Under the pieces are notes generated by a model. The model was given only the letters and a program-made list of their open reading frames with translations, searched no databases and was not told the origin of the DNA. The position numbers and the translations under genes were made by a program. From Arthrobacter sp. 9AX (GTDB taxonomy: Bacteria; Actinomycetota; Actinomycetes; Actinomycetales; Micrococcaceae), in the NCBI RefSeq assembly GCF_902506095.1, contig NZ_LR733293.1, positions 3,347,089-3,411,088 of the forward strand: a stretch of DNA of 64,000 bases, written 5' to 3'. How positions within the stretch are numbered: position 1 is the first letter of the stretch; the number at the start of each line of letters is the position of its first letter. Shown here one piece after another: positions 4,087 through 52,071 of the stretch.

Positions 4087-4377
4087 ATGGGAACTACTGG
4101 GAGTTTGTTCGGCTGGGCATTTGGTGACCCTGCCCGCGAAGGTGAAGGAAAGTACGTGGAAGGGCTCCGGCGCGAGGCGTTCGGCAATGCCCGGGCCACT
4201 GCCGAAGCCAAGGGCGTGGCCGTGGTGCCCGGCTCGGAAGTCTTTACGGTGCTCAGCGGGCACGATTCCCTGGTGGAGCTGGACAACGCCCCCGGACAAC
4301 TTGTTGTCCGTTGCACAGTCCACGTCGAGGGACCCGGCGCGGAGAAGATCCGCGCCGAAGGGCCCATGAACGGCTGA
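4087..4377 (+). CDS. Hypothetical protein, 96 aa
   Basis: Small soluble protein with no recognised domain. The N-terminal half is charged and helical (EGKYVEGLRREAFGNARATAEAKG); the C-terminal half is predicted beta (VAVVPGSEVFTVLSG, QLVVRCTVHVEG). The stop is immediately followed by the start of the DUF1206 gene, so the two are translationally coupled. The start lacks a ribosome-binding site, in line with a leaderless message. Confidence 0.65.
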   Translation: MGTTGSLFGWAFGDPAREGEGKYVEGLRREAFGNARATAEAKGVAVVPGSEVFTVLSGHDSLVELDNAPGQLVVRCTVHVEGPGAEKIRAEGPMNG

Positions 4378-4380
4378 TTG

Positions 4381-5208
4381 ATGTCGGACAGCGAATCCAC
4401 CCTGAGCCAGGCTGCGGACGCCGTCGAGGAAGCCTCGAACCACCCGGCGCTCGACGTCCTGGCCCGGGCCGGGTTCGCCGTGATGGCCCTGCTGCACGTC
4501 ATTATCGGGGCCATCGCCATTGCTGTTGCCTTCGGCCAGCCCGGCGAAGCAGAACCCACGGGCGCCATTGAGCAGCTCGCCGCGAACGCCTGGGGACCGG
4601 TGGTGATGTGGGTCTGCGTCGCTTCGTGCCTTGGCCTGGCCCTGTGGCAGGCCAGCGAAGCCACCTTGCGGGCCCGCCGCCTGCCCCGCAAGGAGCGGGT
4701 TTCCAAGCTGATCTCCTCAGGCTTCCTGGCCATCGCCTACGGCAGCGTCGGCTTCAGCTTCGTCGGATTCGCCGTCGGCCTGCGGGGCGACTCCAGCGAG
4801 AGCACGCAGGATTTCAGCGCCTCGCTGATGGCCGCCCCCTGGGGGCCCTGGGCGTTGGTGGCGCTGGGCCTGACCATCATCGGCATCGGCATCTACTTCG
4901 TGTTCAAGGGCGTACGGCGCGGCTTCAAGGAAGAGCTTTTCCACTTTGACGGGACCCGGCGCGGCCGGCTGATCGATACCCTCGGCGTCACCGGCCATAT
5001 CTCAAAAGGGGCCGCTTTGGGCCTCACCGGGTTGCTCTTCGTCATTGCCGCCGCAAAGCACAGCCCCGAAGAGTCAACCGGACTGGACGGCAGCCTGAAA
5101 GCCCTCCGCGACCACCCGTTCGGCCCCTACCTGCTGGTGGCCATCGGGGCGGGGTTCATTGCGTACGGCATTTTCGCACTGATCCGGTCACGGTTCGGGC
5201 GGATGTAG
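4381..5208 (+). CDS. DUF1206 family membrane protein
   Basis: Integral membrane protein of 275 residues made of three DUF1206 repeats, each a pair of helices: about residues 18-75 (LDVLARAGFAVMALLHVIIG), 100-165 and 195-270. The family is common in actinobacteria and cyanobacteria and has no established function. The ATG at 4381 is used; a TTG directly before it is an alternative. It abuts the 96-aa gene upstream and is followed after 29 bp by the catalase-fold/SRPBCC fusion, so all three may form one transcript. Confidence 0.85.
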   Translation: MSDSESTLSQAADAVEEASNHPALDVLARAGFAVMALLHVIIGAIAIAVAFGQPGEAEPTGAIEQLAANAWGPVVMWVCVASCLGLALWQASEATLRARRLPRKERVSKLISSGFLAIAYGSVGFSFVGFAVGLRGDSSESTQDFSASLMAAPWGPWALVALGLTIIGIGIYFVFKGVRRGFKEELFHFDGTRRGRLIDTLGVTGHISKGAALGLTGLLFVIAAAKHSPEESTGLDGSLKALRDHPFGPYLLVAIGAGFIAYGIFALIRSRFGRM

Positions 5209-5237
5209 CTCCCTCCGTAAGTGGGTAGGAAGGAAAC

Positions 5238-6581
5238 ATGACGCACTTGCTGCAGGACCAGCGCTCCTCCCCCGGCGCCGCTCCCGGGGACGTTGCCCCC
5301 GGTTTCACTAAGACGGCGGGCCGTGGCTTGGCTGCCATGTTCCGGGTTCTCAAAGTGGCGCGGCCGGATCGGCCCATCCATCCGAAGGGGATCAGCCTGG
5401 CGGGCCAACTGATCCGGGCCGGGAACCCTGGAGAAGCGAGCGGGATTGACTGGCTGGACGCTGCGGGCACTGACAGCGTTGTGGCACGCTTCTCGCGTTC
5501 AGTGGGCTTGCCGGAGGGGCTTCCGGACGTGCTGGGCCTCGCACTGCGGGTCGCGCGGTCCGAGGGAAACATCTTGGAGGAGGCGCCCGACGGCGGCCCT
5601 TCGGACGGTGGGTCCGGCGGCAGTGCGGTGGCTGCAGGCAGTCCGCCCAGGTCCGGCGGCGTAGCCGACGTGCTGTTTGCCTCAACAGGCTGGCAACTCC
5701 CAGGCAGGTTCCTGCTCCAGCCCAAGCGCGACGTCGCCCCGGCCACCTTCAGCACCCTCATGCCCTACCGTGGCGGGAACGGGCCGGTGCTGCTGGGGCT
5801 CCGGACCCTCAACCTGCCAGCGGGCTCGGTCGCCTCCGGCAACTGGGTGCTCGGGCTCTACTGGGCAAAACCGTTGGGGCCCTGGCGGCAGTGCGGCGAA
5901 CTCCGGCTCCGCGCAGCCCCGGAACCGGCCGACACTCCCCTGCGCTTCAATCCGCTCGAAAACAAGCCAGACGGCGCGGAAGCCTATGCGTGGACACGCC
6001 GCCTGCGGGAGGACTCCTACCGGGCCGCGCAGCAACCTGCGCCGCCCGCCTCCCCGAGTGCCGGCGTCGTGCATCCCGCCGGAGAGCATCCACTGACTTC
6101 GGACAAACAGCCCAGCCCGGCCACCACAGGAAGGAACACCATGTCCACCGTGTCACAGCTGTTCACCACACCCGCCGCCGACGTCTGGCGGGTCATTGCC
6201 GACGGCTGGCTCTACTCCGGCTGGGTGGTGGGCGCCTCCCGGATCCGCGCAGTGGACGACACGTGGCCGCAGGCTGGTTCACGTCTCCACCACTCCGTCG
6301 GCGCCTGGCCTTTGGTAATTAATGACAGCACCCGGGTCATCGCCGCCGAACCCGGGAAGTCGCTGGAACTGGTGGCGCGCGGCTGGCCGCTGGGCGAGGC
6401 CAAAGTAGTCATCACCTTGCAGGACCAAGGCGACCAGTGCCTGGTGACCATGGCGGAGGACGCCATCCGAGGCCCCGGCAAGAAGGTCCCGAAAGTCCTG
6501 CGCGATCCCTTGATTACCGTCCGGAACCGCGAAACTCTCCAGCGGCTGGAGCTGATGGCCGCAGGCGGAGCCGGACGTTAA
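5238..6581 (+). CDS. Catalase-fold protein fused in frame to SRPBCC domain
   Basis: 447 residues in two parts. Residues 15-275 resemble the heme-less catalase-fold family (RPDRPIHPKGIS, then ARFSRSVGLPEGLPDVLGLALRV, comparable to the catalase RFS...G...RGFALR region) but lack an obvious distal His. Residues 302-440 are an SRPBCC/polyketide-cyclase-like lipid-binding domain (FTTPAADVWRVIADGWLYSGW). The join at residues 275-301 is a Pro/Ala-rich linker. An internal ATG at 6141 begins the SRPBCC domain and has a strong AGGAAGGA 5-6 bp upstream, exactly as for a separate gene, yet no stop intervenes. It may be translated both as a fusion and as a free domain. Confidence 0.75.
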   Translation: MTHLLQDQRSSPGAAPGDVAPGFTKTAGRGLAAMFRVLKVARPDRPIHPKGISLAGQLIRAGNPGEASGIDWLDAAGTDSVVARFSRSVGLPEGLPDVLGLALRVARSEGNILEEAPDGGPSDGGSGGSAVAAGSPPRSGGVADVLFASTGWQLPGRFLLQPKRDVAPATFSTLMPYRGGNGPVLLGLRTLNLPAGSVASGNWVLGLYWAKPLGPWRQCGELRLRAAPEPADTPLRFNPLENKPDGAEAYAWTRRLREDSYRAAQQPAPPASPSAGVVHPAGEHPLTSDKQPSPATTGRNTMSTVSQLFTTPAADVWRVIADGWLYSGWVVGASRIRAVDDTWPQAGSRLHHSVGAWPLVINDSTRVIAAEPGKSLELVARGWPLGEAKVVITLQDQGDQCLVTMAEDAIRGPGKKVPKVLRDPLITVRNRETLQRLELMAAGGAGR

Positions 6582-47905: not shown

Positions 47906-49666
47906 TTATGCGCCGGCCCGCTCGTCCCGGGTGTGCGCGTCCAGCCATTCCTTCAGCGCCGGGGCCGGCAGCGGGCGGGCGAAGTGGAACCCCTGGGCGA
48001 GGTCGCAGCCCATGTCCTTGAGCGTCTGCACCTGACCGGAGGTTTCCACACCCTCGGCAACGGCCCGGATGCCCACAGCGTGCGCCAGGTCGATGCAGCT
48101 CCCCACAATCGCGGAATCACCGGAGTCCGATCCCAGTCCATTGATGAATGACCGGTCGATCTTCAGTTCGTCGATGGGGAATTTCTTCAGGTAGGTCAGG
48201 CTCGAGTAGCCCGTGCCGAAGTCGTCCACGGCGAGGCCCACGCCCAGGTTCTTCAGCGCCGTGAGCGAGTCCAGCGCACCGCCGGGGTCTGCCATCAGGG
48301 CCGTTTCGGTGATCTCCAGCAGCAGGTGCGAGGAATCGATTCCGCGCAACCGGAGCGCGTCTTCCACCATGGTCACCAGCCCGGGATCACTGAGCTGGCG
48401 GGCGGACAGGTTGACGGCGAAATCAAGGTCCGCACCGCGGCGGCTTTCCCGGCGCCAGTTGTCAGCCTGCCGGAGCGTTTCGCCCAGGACCCAGGCGCCA
48501 AGTGGACGGACCAACCCGGATTCTTCGGCCATGGTGATGAATTCCGACGGCGGCAGCAGGCCCCGTGTTGGATGCTGCCACCTGACCAGTGCCTCCACGC
48601 CCGTGGCGCGGCCGGTGTGCAGGTCGATGCGCGGCTGGTAGTGCACCCGGAGGGCACCGTCGTTGATTCCGCGGCGCAGCTCGCCCAGCGCCCGGAGCCG
48701 GTCCACGGTGTAGTCAGACTCGGCAGGCTGGTGCAGTTCCCAGCGGCTGCGTCCCAGTTCCTTGGCCCGGTACATTGCGATGTCGGCCCGGCGGACCAGG
48801 TCTTCAGGGGTTTCATCATCATCCCCGTTGACGGCGACTCCGATGCTCGCGGACGTAACGATTTCCAGTCCTTCGATCAGGATGGGCGTCTTGAGGATCT
48901 CCAGCAGCCCGGCTGCCAGGCCAGTTGCCTCGCGGGAGCCGGCGAAGGAGTCCACCACCACGAACTCGTCACCGGACAGCCGGGCCACGATGCCGGTTCC
49001 CGGAACGGCCGCCCTCAGGCGGTTCGCCACCGAAACCAGGAGATCGTCCCCGGCCGCGTGGCCCAGGCTGTCGTTGACGGCCTTGAAGTGGTCCAGGTCG
49101 ATGAACAGGACGGCCAGCCCGCCGCCCGCCGGTACCGCGTCCAGCTTCGCCTTCAGCCCAGCCCTGTTGGGCAGGCCGGTCAGTGCGTCGTGCAGGGCCA
49201 GGTGCTGGAGTTCCTTTTCCGCCTGCGCGCGCCGGGCTTCTGCTTCTTCGGCTGCCCGGAGCGCGGAGACCAGTTCCCTTTCGTACATCCGCCGTTCATG
49301 GGCACTGAAAATGATGACGCGGACACTGGCAGGCTCCTGCCCTGAGCCGGGTGACCGTGATGCCGAGAGCAGCGCCGCCCGCCGCCCGCCGTCTGCCGCA
49401 ATGATCTCAACGGCGATCTCGGACACTGCGCCATTAATGCCCAGTTGGGGAATGCAGTGCGTCGAGTACAGGATCTGGTCCCCAACAGGCATCAGGGACT
49501 GCAGCTTGGACCCCACCAGCCCGGAACGGCTGTAACCCGTCCAGCGCACAAAGGTTTCGTTGACCGCGGTGATGCGTCCGGCGTCGTCCGTTATCAGATA
49601 CCCGCACGGCGCCTGGTGGAACAGCGCCTCAAAATGGTCCGGGTCCGGCCCGCCGGGTCCTGTCAC
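47906..49666 (-). CDS. PAS-GGDEF-EAL c-di-GMP turnover protein
   Basis: 586 residues. PAS sensor at about 8-125 (FHQAPCGYLITDDAGRITAVNETFVRWTGYS), a short coiled linker, GGDEF domain at about 165-320 and EAL domain at about 330-575. The GGDEF active-site loop reads RLSGDEF (first Gly to Ser) with DSLGHAAGDDLL intact; EAL has GVEALVRWQHP, NLSARQL, DDFGTGYSSLTYLKKFPIDELKIDRSFI. Both cyclase and phosphodiesterase activities are possible. The GTG start overlaps the stop of the RsbQ-like gene as GTGA. Its PAS resembles those that partner RsbQ in stress-signal proteins. Confidence 0.9.
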   Translation of the reverse strand: MTGPGGPDPDHFEALFHQAPCGYLITDDAGRITAVNETFVRWTGYSRSGLVGSKLQSLMPVGDQILYSTHCIPQLGINGAVSEIAVEIIAADGGRRAALLSASRSPGSGQEPASVRVIIFSAHERRMYERELVSALRAAEEAEARRAQAEKELQHLALHDALTGLPNRAGLKAKLDAVPAGGGLAVLFIDLDHFKAVNDSLGHAAGDDLLVSVANRLRAAVPGTGIVARLSGDEFVVVDSFAGSREATGLAAGLLEILKTPILIEGLEIVTSASIGVAVNGDDDETPEDLVRRADIAMYRAKELGRSRWELHQPAESDYTVDRLRALGELRRGINDGALRVHYQPRIDLHTGRATGVEALVRWQHPTRGLLPPSEFITMAEESGLVRPLGAWVLGETLRQADNWRRESRRGADLDFAVNLSARQLSDPGLVTMVEDALRLRGIDSSHLLLEITETALMADPGGALDSLTALKNLGVGLAVDDFGTGYSSLTYLKKFPIDELKIDRSFINGLGSDSGDSAIVGSCIDLAHAVGIRAVAEGVETSGQVQTLKDMGCDLAQGFHFARPLPAPALKEWLDAHTRDERAGA

Positions 49667-50499
49667 GGACTGCCCGAAAGGTAGTTCAGGATTGCTTGGG
49701 CCGTGTCCTGCGGCGCGCTGACATGCGGGCAGTGTCCGGTGGCCTGAAGCTGCACCAGCGTGCTGTGCGCCAGGTGCCGGTGCACATAGGAACCCACTTC
49801 AGGCGGCGCGAGCAGGTCCTCGGAGCACTGCAGGACCAGGCTGTCCGTTCCCACCTGGTCCAGTATGTTCCGGGTGTCCGAGAGGAAGGTGACCCGTGCG
49901 AAGTGGCTCGCGATGGCGGGATCGGTGCGGCAGAAGCTGCTCCGGAGTTCCTCCGAGAGCTCAGGGTCCTCGGGATTGCCCATGGCCATCGGAGCCAGTG
50001 CCTCGGCCCAGGCGAAGTAGTTGCTGTCCAGGGATGCCAGCAGGCCCTCAATGTCCTCCTTCGAGAATCCGCCCACGTAGCCATGGGCGGGGTCGTTGGT
50101 GTAGCGCGGGGAGGGTGCCACCAGGACCAGCCGGGAGAACCGCTCAGGTTCCTGCGCAGCAGCGATCACCCCCACCATTGCGCTGACGCTGTGGGCCACC
50201 AGGATGACGTCCTTCAGGTCCAGGGCTTCGCAGATTTCCAGTAGATCCGCCGCGTAGCCAGCCAGCGACCCGTACTTTTCCCGGTCATAGGCCTCCACGT
50301 CCGAGCGGCCCGCGCCAACGTTGTCAAAGAGCACCAGCCGGTGGGTATCGGAGAAGTAGGGCACGAGCCTGCGCCACATCGCCTGGTCGCAGCCGTAGCC
50401 GTGGGCAAACAGCATCACCGGCCCGTCCGCCCGGCCGGACACGGTAACGTTGTTCCGGCGGATCACCGGTGAAACTGCTGACGCGACGGCTTCGACCAT
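49663..50499 (-). CDS. RsbQ-like alpha/beta hydrolase
   Basis: 278-residue hydrolase of the RsbQ/KAI2/D14 group. Hallmarks: FAHGYGCDQAMWRRLVPYF, VLFDNVGAGRSDVEAYDREKYGSLAGYA, nucleophile LVAHSVSAMVGVIAA, LVAPSPRYTNDPAHGYVGGFSKEDI, and catalytic His in TGHCPHVSAP. In Bacillus, RsbQ works with the PAS domain of RsbP to signal energy stress, presumably by acting on a small ligand. Here the coupled partner (GTGA overlap) is a PAS-GGDEF-EAL protein instead of a PP2C phosphatase. A palindrome (AGTA-GGGT-TACT) lies 24 bp upstream of the ATG. Confidence 0.9.
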   Translation of the reverse strand: MVEAVASAVSPVIRRNNVTVSGRADGPVMLFAHGYGCDQAMWRRLVPYFSDTHRLVLFDNVGAGRSDVEAYDREKYGSLAGYAADLLEICEALDLKDVILVAHSVSAMVGVIAAAQEPERFSRLVLVAPSPRYTNDPAHGYVGGFSKEDIEGLLASLDSNYFAWAEALAPMAMGNPEDPELSEELRSSFCRTDPAIASHFARVTFLSDTRNILDQVGTDSLVLQCSEDLLAPPEVGSYVHRHLAHSTLVQLQATGHCPHVSAPQDTAQAILNYLSGSP

Positions 50500-50522
50500 G
50501 CCTCACGGACCCCCAAAGATAA

Positions 50523-50535
50523 TAAGTAGGGTTAC
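50523..50535 (-). promoter_or_regulatory. AGTA-GGGT-TACT palindrome upstream of RsbQ-like gene
   Basis: AAGTAGGGTTACT, 24 bp upstream of the ATG at 50499; on the minus strand it is followed by TTATTATC, a possible -10 box. Same class as sites at 2021, 4021, 54303 and 60901. Confidence 0.45.
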
Positions 50536-50610
50536 TTTGCGTTTGCTCAGATACTAGCGTCGGCGGGTCCCTGAATCCTAGGACCGGCCCAGGATTGATG
50601 GAATCTTGAC

Positions 50611-52071
50611 CTAGCCGATGATGGGGCGTTCCTCCGGCAGCCGGAACAGGCGCGGCCGGGCCGAGAGGGCCAGGGCTGACGCCACCGTCACCGTCCCGAT
50701 ACGGCCCGTGAACATCAATGCCATCAGCACCCACTCAGCGGACGGGGGCAGGTGGTACGTGATGCCGGTGCTCATGCCCACTGTGCCGAACGCGGAGATG
50801 GATTCGAACAGGACCTTCTCCAGGCTGTAGTCGGTGAACATCAGCAGCAGCATGGTCCCGATCACCACAGCGGCGATCCCCAGCAGTGCCACGGACAGGG
50901 CCTGCCGCTGGGAAGAGGAACTGACAGACCGGTGGGCGATGGTCACCTGGTCACGGCCGCGGACTTCGTTCCAGATGGCGAAGCCAAGTACCAGGAAGGT
51001 GGTGATCTTGATGCCGCCGGCGGTGCCGGCACTGCCGCCGCCGATGAACATCAGGATGTTGGTGACCATCAGCGTTTCCGGGGCCGCGGCGCCGTAGTCG
51101 ATGCTGTTGAACCCGGCGGTGCGGGGAAAGACGCTGCCGGCGAAGGAGCCCAGGATCTTGCCGGTCAACGAGAGGTGGCCCAACGTCTCGTTCCGGTTCC
51201 ATTCGAACGCCGCGAACAGCACCATCCCGGCGATCAGGAGGAACAGCGTTCCGTAGACAGTCAAGCGCAGGTGCACGGACCAGTTCCGGGGCCTGGTCTC
51301 GCCCCGGACCAACTGGATGATCACCGGGAAACCGAGCCCGCCGGCGATGATGGCCAGGCAGATGGGCGTGATGATCCACGGGTCCTCCGCGAAGCCGACG
51401 AGGTTGTTGCTGTAGACCGAGAAGCCGGCGTTGTTAAAGGCGGAGACAGCGTGGAAGATCCCGTGCCAGAGCGCAGTGCCGGGGTTTTGGTCATAGGCGA
51501 TCCAGAACCGGATCGAGAGGACCAGCGCTGTCGCGGCTTCGAACGTGAGCATGATCCGCGCCACCCGGAGCAGCACCGCCCGGACATCGCCCAGGTTAAG
51601 GGTGTGGGTTTCGGACTGGGCCACGAGCTGGCCGCGGAGGCCGATGCTTTTGCGGACCAGCAGCGCCAGGAGGGTGGCAAGGGTCATGATGCCGAACCCG
51701 CCCACCTGGATCAGCGCCAGGATGACCACGTGCCCGAACGGGGTCCAAAACGTTGCCGTGTCCACGGTGATCAGGCCCGTCACGCACACGGCGGAAACGG
51801 AGGTGAACAGTGCGTCCATGAATGCCCCGGCGTCGGGGTCGGTGCGTGACGCCGGGAGCATCAGCAGTGCCGCCCCGATGATGATGACCATCAGGAAGGC
51901 AACGGGAACTGCCCTGACCGGGTGGGACAGTGCCCGCCGGATGAAGTTTTCCTTGCCGCCGCCGTTGTCGTTCCGGGCGTCCCGGAGCATTTTTTGGATG
52001 GCGGCCACGCTGGAAGCGTCGGGGCCCGGGGTGGCGGGTGCCGGCGTCGGGACGCTCCTTCGCAGGCTCAT
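50611..52071 (-). CDS. TrkH/KtrB-family potassium uptake protein
   Basis: 486-residue channel-like K+ translocating subunit with four M1-P-M2 units. Pore loops: [45 protein letters not shown], and [16 protein letters not shown], each with the single selectivity Gly. N-terminal 50 residues are cytosolic. The ATG overlaps the APC-permease stop as ATGA, so the two are cotranslated. No TrkA/KtrA regulatory gene lies within the window. Confidence 0.93.

Follow-up and report, generated by a model that had tools for sequence, protein, structure and literature searches.

An RsbQ-family hydrolase gene overlapping a PAS-GGDEF-EAL gene in Arthrobacter, and its sister clade of hydrolases without the partner

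The window (the whole stretch of 64,000 nucleotides of Arthrobacter sp. 9AX analyzed here) carries two overlapping genes on the minus strand, for a hydrolase and a PAS-GGDEF-EAL protein, with promoter-like elements and a palindrome upstream:

50574..50582, minus strand: -35-like CCTAGGATT (0–1 mismatch at 10/18 paired and 31/36 orphan loci)
50548..50556, minus strand: -10-like TAGTATCTG, 17 nt downstream of CCTAGGATT (0–1 mismatch at 16/18 paired and 4/36 orphan loci)
50524..50537, no strand assigned: 5′-leader palindrome AAGTAGGGTTACTT (kept by only a minority of the orthologues)
49663..50499, minus strand: RsbQ-family alpha/beta hydrolase, 278 aa (ORF and family match)
50188–50190, 49816–49818 and 49732–49734, minus strand: triad Ser104, Asp228 and His256 of the window hydrolase
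49663..49666, minus strand: GTGA stop/start overlap of the hydrolase and PAS-GGDEF-EAL genes (same offset in 18/18 and 16/16 relatives)
47906..49666, minus strand: PAS-GGDEF-EAL protein, 586 aa, probable c-di-GMP cyclase/phosphodiesterase (Pfam domains)
49304..49633, minus strand: RsbP-type PAS domain, residues about 12–121 (Pfam, AlphaFold2 model, class positions)
49433–49486, minus strand: F-alpha helix, residues about 61–78, expected hydrolase contact by analogy with B. subtilis
49193..49303, minus strand: predicted long linker helix from PAS to GGDEF, residues 122–158 (37 residues; AlphaFold2 model)
48743..49198, minus strand: GGDEF domain, motif SGDEF, without an RxxD I-site at the usual place (Pfam 9.6e-38 and motif check)
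47972..48682, minus strand: EAL domain, complete for the seven motifs examined (Pfam 2.6e-75, motif check, structure match)

The original prediction of an RsbQ homolog overlapping a PAS-GGDEF-EAL gene by GTGA is borne out: both open reading frames lie at these coordinates, and the domains and the RsbQ match were computed. The hydrolase gene is directly upstream of a gene with the PAS as its most N-terminal domain, an arrangement that is among the criteria for the RsbQ-PAS module (Nadezhdin et al. 2011). Among 198 genomes of the genus, the 4-base overlap is present in 18/18 PAS-GGDEF-EAL pairs and 16/16 PAS-GGDEF pairs (34/34 in total). Since an overlap of 4 bases recurs in every pair of both kinds, it is not due to chance.

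Residues 9–275 of the hydrolase match B. subtilis RsbQ (1wom, E 3.6e-89), its best solved match, ahead of KAI2/D14 (302 bits vs. about 197 bits). By similarity and intact triad, it belongs to the RsbQ family, and it is not closer to the KAI2/D14 receptors than to RsbQ. The triad columns are invariant across all usable rows (18 paired, 36 orphan, 16 group C, and 54 other hydrolases). Tyr133 occupies the pocket position of KAI2 Tyr124. To go by the title of Melville's 2024 work, butenolides are reportedly perceived by RsbQ.

The PAS domain has a Pfam match (2.6e-8) above the cut-off, as do GGDEF and EAL. Class residues were placed by spacing from the class Cys10, with the positions given in the available part of the text of PMC3183031 rather than by alignment to an RsbP sequence. 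With this placement, C10, L13, Q53, and E72 are identical, L48, C56, and Y59 have the plausible replacements M, Y, and H, and F55 and P86 differ (L and A). P62, outside the nine class residues, is also identical. The F55 position is L, M, V, or I in 45/46 GGDEF-class PAS domains. The end of the domain reads, by eye, FSAHERR, and thus lacks the DIT end. For B. subtilis, the available part of PMC3183031 describes a contact between RsbQ and the PAS that is lost, along with signalling, in the F55A mutant. Hydrolase and PAS co-diverge, with r 0.79 over 80 pairs (kinship included) against a top value of 0.11 in 500 permutations.

The output is GGDEF-EAL and not the PPM phosphatase of the RsbQP pair proper. 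Where the signature has GG(D/E)EF, 17/18 orthologues read SGDEF and one AGDEF. The EAL phosphodiesterase motifs (EAL, N, E, DDFGTG, K, E, Q) are complete in 15/18 group A proteins, the window included, and the best EAL-only structures match the window EAL at target TM 0.91–0.96 (ranks 14–18). The AlphaFold2 model of the whole protein has a mean pLDDT of 85.4, and its domain arrangement is uncertain (pTM 0.48, full-length matches superposing poorly). Proteins of the sister group C are PAS-GGDEF without EAL, and SGDEF is read in 15/16 (L068 and L078 are broken frames). The window genome has 6 GGDEF places; a search of it for PilZ returned no match.

We consider that the pair probably forms a bipartite RsbQ-PAS sensor acting on a c-di-GMP enzyme. 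The ligand that enters the RsbQ pocket would be small and hydrophobic, with a butenolide or a different lactone or ester as plausible candidates; the Ser-His-Asp triad would bind it and might slowly cleave it. With its ligand in place, the hydrolase would then contact the F-alpha helix of the PAS in a PAS-GGDEF-EAL dimer, and the change would travel through the 37-residue linker helix to shift the balance between c-di-GMP synthesis (SGDEF) and breakdown (EAL). This reading rests on RsbQ as best solved match, the invariant triad, the mostly kept PAS class positions, the co-divergence and the 34/34 overlap, together with helix 122–158, the intact EAL motifs and EAL structure matches, the RsbQ-PAS contact in B. 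subtilis (in the available text) and the butenolide title. Leu at F55, Ala at P86, the genome without a PilZ match, and the pTM of 0.48 speak against it; besides, proteins of the PAS-GGDEF-EAL type are frequent, and what that part matches is independent of RsbQ.

A narrower version of this sensor, not exclusive of it, takes the output as phosphodiesterase only: SGDEF would have decayed into a switch that binds GTP, and the hydrolase would control nothing but c-di-GMP breakdown. SGDEF itself, the missing I-site, the complete EAL motifs, and the phosphodiesterases among the close structural matches fit such an output. However, in group C, which has SGDEF without EAL, SGDEF probably works as an output, and we regard the narrower version as rather unlikely. 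Because the sister group uses SGDEF without EAL, we lean, from the sequences, toward a live cyclase in the GGDEF, and likewise toward an active EAL; the net direction may be either.

The bipartite sensor has published counterparts. In the available part of their survey, Nadezhdin et al. (2011; PMC3183031) describe RsbQ with an RsbP-type PAS whose fused output is a phosphatase, a kinase, or a diguanylate cyclase; the cyclases occur in Gram-positives and Gram-negatives, and three of them have an EAL. The words Arthrobacter and Actinobacteria are absent from the main text of PMC3183031 as available. The claim of the same input with a different output is well backed by the RsbP-like PAS, the kept gene order, and this survey, and has been in print since 2011. 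As for the cue, the same source calls that of the RsbQ-PAS input mysterious, and its discussion describes the energy-stress link as lacking experimental support even in Bacillus. The 55 loci listed here from order and phylum searches, a part of all matches, comprise 20 with GGDEF and/or EAL, 17 PPM, 3 histidine kinases, and 15 without class. The 80 named loci, the best 80 of 575, include 33 PPM, 15 kinases, 3 GGDEF-EAL, and 29 without class (the orphans L162–L164 among them). These classes were assigned by permissive motif searches of the longest frame nearby, and a locus without class need not lack an output.

With B. subtilis RsbQ-RsbP (the sigma-B energy branch), the window shares a hydrolase upstream of a protein with an N-terminal RsbP-type PAS, the triad, the hPCG motif, and the F-alpha region; it differs in having GGDEF-EAL instead of a PPM phosphatase, Leu instead of F55, and c-di-GMP instead of sigma-B as presumed target. 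The RsbQ-PAS-diguanylate cyclase class, for example Psychromonas ingrahamii A1SX34 (cyclase and phosphodiesterase), has the same module and output type in the available part of the source, but the route to the output in A1SX34 runs through another PAS that is unrelated to the first, whereas the window protein has one PAS and a long helix. RbdA (PA0861) and DosP have the PAS-GGDEF-EAL domain order in common with it. Their PAS differs from that of the window, and we know of no hydrolase partner for either. The plant receptors KAI2/D14 (karrikin, strigolactone) are alike in hydrolase family, pocket, and triad. They act with plant signalling partners and, to our knowledge, without PAS. KAI2 possibly arose by transfer of a bacterial RsbQ, according to the available part of PMC10504578. 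In Moorella MtG, a sigma-B-type sensor partner likewise feeds a diguanylate cyclase, but it is RsbT plus an RsbU-type domain and not a hydrolase plus PAS (PMC12143880, available part).

Upstream, the pattern CCTAGGATT-N14-22-TAGTATCTG occurs at exactly one place in the genome, at the hydrolase gene, so no wider regulon was found. The palindrome had been thought common to other regulatory genes; AAGTAGGGTTACTT is indeed present upstream, yet the window has no second exact site. Genome-wide, the exact pattern lies at 3 places vs. 4 for the reversed control, and at 0–1 mismatch it lies upstream of 4/18 paired orthologues and 0/36 orphans. In its favor, shuffled upstream regions of the 18 paired loci give a fraction of 0.0 at 0–1 mismatch, and with up to two mismatches there are 11 window sites vs. 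1.8 expected (10/11 having two). We rejected AAGTAGGGTTACTT as a regulon motif on the exact-site counts, no better than control, and the few orthologues. Among 18-mers starting at every third position of 50505–50550, none has a second copy in the window at ≤4 mismatches. A second palindrome, AATCCTAGGATT, has one window match with 2 mismatches, no more than chance.

The expected pairing in close relatives stands at all 18 paired-clade loci, but the partner is lost in a sister clade. These orphans form one clade, occur in 38/198 genomes of the genus (two copies beside the paired one in the window genome), and group with the paired clade in a "quick" tree (long branches outside the genus, no branch order inside the A+B group, L148 left out as too short). 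A search with the window PAS (E ≤ 0.001) came back empty for 27 of 28 orphan-only genomes, though more distant RsbP-type PAS could escape it, as the query was the window's own. In 8/36 orphans, a remnant of the PAS gene outscores all 108 control windows. The other 28 do not reach this level, which leaves those 8, along with the tree and the shared promoter box, as the evidence for partner loss. After the stop point comes TGAC in 27/36 orphans and 17/18 paired loci.

The orphans are under purifying selection, with dN/dS of 0.156 vs. 0.155 for paired copies (NG86 pairwise, not tree-based). Their synonymous divergence is below that of paired copies or the control gene in 36/36 genome pairs; in the 8 pairs with G000, which has two orphans, the lower-dS copy was taken, favoring a low orphan value. 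G175 (truncated), G099:C6 (broken), and G137 (contig-end fragments) were left out of dN/dS and orphan tables, and L028 and L033 dropped as repeats of L101 and L102. At the KAI2 Tyr124 pocket position, 36/36 usable orphans have His, and 86/88 other hydrolases Tyr. Nine positions are fixed in orphans (133, 206, 229, 44, 73, 107, 123, 127, 220); they are correlated by descent, and Tyr133His counts as one event, not 36. Positions 206 and 229 adjoin pocket or catalytic residues, a less clear case.

About half of the orphans have flanks without a counterpart at any other orphan, although flanks of about 1.3 kb or less, for loci known with 1.5-kb margins only, favor "unmatched." Flanks are shared at 15 loci on the upstream side or 17 on the downstream side, a pattern expected from vertical descent or from a single preferred site. 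The phages collection held no orphan match, and in viral contigs four stretches fit a pattern, none a relative. One orphan relative (89%) is on a conjugative Arthrobacter plasmid record, taken as G023's own contig and so not an independent case. A search scoring two candidates per genome found no empty site; its flank matches are a separate thiolase-like gene (67–75% identity) without the cassette. The sharp left ends of the orphan unit may partly be alignment end effects.

Tentatively, and at somewhat less than even weight, we propose that one RsbQ lineage of this genus separated from the PAS-GGDEF-EAL protein it was paired with and turned into a self-sufficient unit of ~1 kb, which has a promoter of its own, a single gene, and a scrap of the former partner, and which has dispersed horizontally. 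It would have kept triad and full purifying selection and changed its pocket at the position of KAI2 Tyr124, which separates plant-receptor ligand classes; it would be a bacterial counterpart of solitary KAI2/D14, working without PAS on a ligand different from that of the paired enzyme.

The orphans also bear on the sensor reading of the pair. Their persistence under purifying selection where the window PAS finds no match indicates that a hydrolase can be useful alone, and this, with the non-aromatic residue at F55, would suit an ordinary metabolic esterase or lactonase merely co-expressed with the c-di-GMP enzyme, the PAS sensing something else directly. Against that stand the conserved overlap, RsbQ-PAS neighbours across order and phylum, the co-divergence, the RsbP-like PAS, and the published B. 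subtilis contact (PMC3183031, available part), which make it unlikely. It is very improbable that a single PAS-GGDEF-EAL protein takes input in trans from every hydrolase of its genome, orphans included, and gains a wider ligand range in this way: the window genome has one such partner and three hydrolases, and 10/38 orphan genomes have the pair, but 28/38 do not, nearly all of them without a window-PAS match.

A two-gene RsbQ-PAS sensor with c-di-GMP output is of a known kind; a sister hydrolase kept and spread without its partner is more unusual. The pair would add another RsbQ-PAS input coupled to a c-di-GMP enzyme, in culturable soil bacteria (Arthrobacter relatives). With the orphan clade, nature has run the experiment of taking the PAS away from the hydrolase, and, if the proposal holds, this lineage would separate two published models, the hydrolase as enzyme and as PAS-bound sensor. 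If orphans hydrolyse or bind butenolides, RsbQ/KAI2 signalling would be separable from catalysis, and comparing paired and orphan pockets could lead to the ligand.

The window pair consists of two overlapping reading frames, and the coordinates, the Pfam domains and the GTGA overlap agree with the original prediction:

49663-50499, minus strand: open reading frame of 278 amino acids, RsbQ-family hydrolase (Pfam Abhydrolase_1)
47906-49666, minus strand: open reading frame of 586 amino acids, PAS-GGDEF-EAL protein (Pfam PAS, GGDEF, EAL)

The hydrolase, with a catalytic triad of Ser104, Asp228 and His256, is nearer to B. subtilis RsbQ (1wom, its best solved match, 302 bits) than to plant KAI2 (about 197 bits). 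In the partner, the cyclase motif is SGDEF, the motif check gave no RxxD I-site in the GGDEF domain, and 7/7 of the EAL motifs checked are present. The AlphaFold2 model of the partner (39-sequence alignment; mean pLDDT 85.4, pTM 0.48) shows a PAS-like fold and the two catalytic domains, along with a helix over residues 122-158, the domain arrangement being uncertain. The best Foldseek matches are DosP, PA0575, PA0861 (PAS-GGDEF-EAL) and MorA.

Nadezhdin, Brody and Price (2011) described 45 RsbQ/PAS pairs with PPM, histidine kinase or diguanylate cyclase outputs, three of the cyclases carrying an EAL domain (PMC3183031). A 2025 eLife paper restates the coupling of the module to cyclases and predicts RsbQ to lie between PAS and linker (PMC12143880). 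The window pair adds a member to the 2011 class; the RsbQ/PAS-GGDEF-EAL finding is real and the class is already published. In the open-access papers searched, we found none on Arthrobacter RsbQ or on orphans, that is, RsbQ genes without a PAS partner.

In B. subtilis, the F55A substitution in the PAS F-alpha helix abolishes RsbQ binding and signalling (PMC3183031). Matched to RsbP numbering by spacing from the class cysteine, the PAS residues correspond as follows (window = RsbP):

C21 = C10, L24 = L13, M59 = L48, Q64 = Q53, L66 = F55
Y67 = C56, H70 = Y59, P73 = P62, E83 = E72, A97 = P86
49469-49471: F55-equivalent PAS position (window residue 66)

The contact F55 of RsbP is Leu66 in the window PAS. 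Since this position is aliphatic (L, M, V or I) in 45/46 GGDEF-class PAS domains and Y, H or F in 17/17 PPM-class ones, the contact residue varies with the output class.

An RsbQ-family gene (E <= 1e-30) occurs in 61 of the 198 genomes of the genus. In group A, the clade of the window, the hydrolases of the other 17 genomes are 70-86% identical to the window gene, and PAS-GGDEF-EAL comes next in all 18 (the output frame of G099 stops short of EAL). In group C, a sister set of paired loci (43-52% identity), PAS-GGDEF without EAL comes next in 16 genomes, with broken frames at L068 and L078; one genome, G168, has both groups. The search for the pair in other genomes, proposed with the original prediction, shows the 4-base overlap kept at 18/18 group A and 16/16 group C loci. 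The gene was found (E <= 1e-40, the window's own counted) in 37/297 genomes of the order and 24/396 of the phylum; by motifs, the partners at 55 such loci are GGDEF/EAL (20), PPM phosphatase (17) and histidine kinase (3), with 15 unclassed. Over 80 pairs, the distances between hydrolases track those between PAS domains (r 0.79, shared ancestry included; maximum of 500 permutations 0.11). In Arthrobacter gallicola and A. pullicola, a PAS-histidine kinase (L172 and L186, both 4307-5899; Pfam HisKA, HATPase_c) follows RsbQ. The 2011 survey has kinase outputs in Gram-negatives (PMC3183031), whereas these two loci put that output in Gram-positive bacteria. On a contig titled Vibrio cholerae strain 35D (L165; 68% G+C), GGDEF and EAL motifs follow an RsbQ that shares 64% identity with that of the window; the record is probably mislabelled or contaminated.

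The expected pairing in close relatives stands at the 18/18 group A loci but has been lost in the orphan clade. Orphans are found in 38/198 genomes (28 orphan-only, 10 also with group A), the gene being broken in G099, in fragments in G137 and truncated in G175. The window genome has two, 71-72% identical to the window gene and with no PAS gene behind:

L009, 7076-7900 (C5:4191075): orphan RsbQ, PAS remnant downstream
L010, 7452-8288 (C5:4003451): orphan RsbQ

The window PAS, as query, matched 37 of the same 198 genomes (33 with a pair and four more weakly) and gave no match in 27/28 orphan-only genomes, though a more distant RsbP-type PAS could escape; the exception is a weak match in G175. 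A tree of 124 hydrolases places all 36 usable orphans in a single clade (SH-aLRT 100), nested with group A (SH-aLRT 100), the branch order inside that group not being settled. A single partner loss explains this clade, because a partner is present in most of group C and of the outer relatives too. The remnant after the L009 orphan covers 37 residues of a PAS start (58% identity), and 8/36 orphans resemble the PAS start of group A more closely than any of 108 control windows does.

Median pairwise dN/dS (NG86) is 0.156 in orphans (625/630 pairs with usable dS), 0.155 in group A (137/153) and 0.201 in group C (107/120), and the triad is invariant. Judged from the sequences, the orphans as a group are not decaying. 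Nine genomes have both an orphan and a group A gene; among these, the orphans show a lower dS than group A in 36/36 pairs, and a lower dS than the control, a gene for a TrkH-like transporter found in all nine, in 36/36 pairs (medians 0.26 vs 0.65). With a 4.1-kb query around one orphan, the others align over no more than about 0.8-1.0 kb, the left end mostly sharp. Upstream flanks are unlike any other orphan locus in 16/36 cases (largest cluster 15 loci), downstream flanks in 19/38 (largest cluster 17). An orphan relative (89% identity) lies on a conjugative Arthrobacter plasmid record, judged by length the G023 contig. A unit of about 1 kb likely spread horizontally, with some loci inherited in place.

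At nine alignment positions, orphans and group A each have a nearly fixed residue of their own. The clearest case is position 133, which is Tyr in 18/18 group A, 16/16 group C and 52/54 other sequences, and His in 36/36 orphans. It aligns with KAI2 Tyr124, which lines the active-site cavity and is the sole cavity aromatic to distinguish the two receptors, being Tyr in KAI2 and Phe in D14 (PMC3548789); Y124 and F124 types are defined in asterid KAI2 (PMC11350264). Leu229 is replaced by Arg in 35/36 orphans and 1/18 group A sequences; this is D-loop position 218 of KAI2, divergent between pea KAI2A and KAI2B (PMC8837635). Because each is one ancestral change, the two hint at a new ligand and do not prove it.

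Upstream of the window pair are:

50524-50537: palindrome AAGTAGGGTTACTT
50548-50556: promoter-like box TAGTATCTG, kept at 16/18 group A loci
50574-50582: promoter-like box CCTAGGATT, kept at 10/18 group A loci
50611-52071: TrkH-like potassium transporter, directly upstream

The palindrome had been said to recur at other regulatory genes; its exact pattern has three places genome-wide vs four for the reversed control. At 0-1 mismatch it lies upstream at 4/18 group A loci, more than in shuffled upstream regions (fraction 0.0), but these loci are related. The promoter-like pair, spaced by 17 bases, is better kept. The TrkH-like gene is likewise just upstream in G183, a few kb away in a different arrangement in G070 and G061, and far off or on another contig in G063 and G123; since its location varies, it is outside the module.

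Most likely, the hydrolase would bind a small ligand and, so loaded, act on the PAS domain, the change being relayed through the linker helix to GGDEF-EAL. By the title of their paper, Melville et al. reportedly found that RsbQ perceives butenolides, which are for this reason our best guess for the ligand. That paper is cited in a review (PMC13192556). The 2011 discussion terms the RsbQ cue mysterious and the energy-sensing assumption without experimental support (PMC3183031). GGDEF is found at six places in the window genome. PilZ gave no match in it (control matches in 5/14 genomes), and the c-di-GMP reader must therefore be another protein. The orphan clade renders the old question about RsbQ, catalysis or contact, directly testable.
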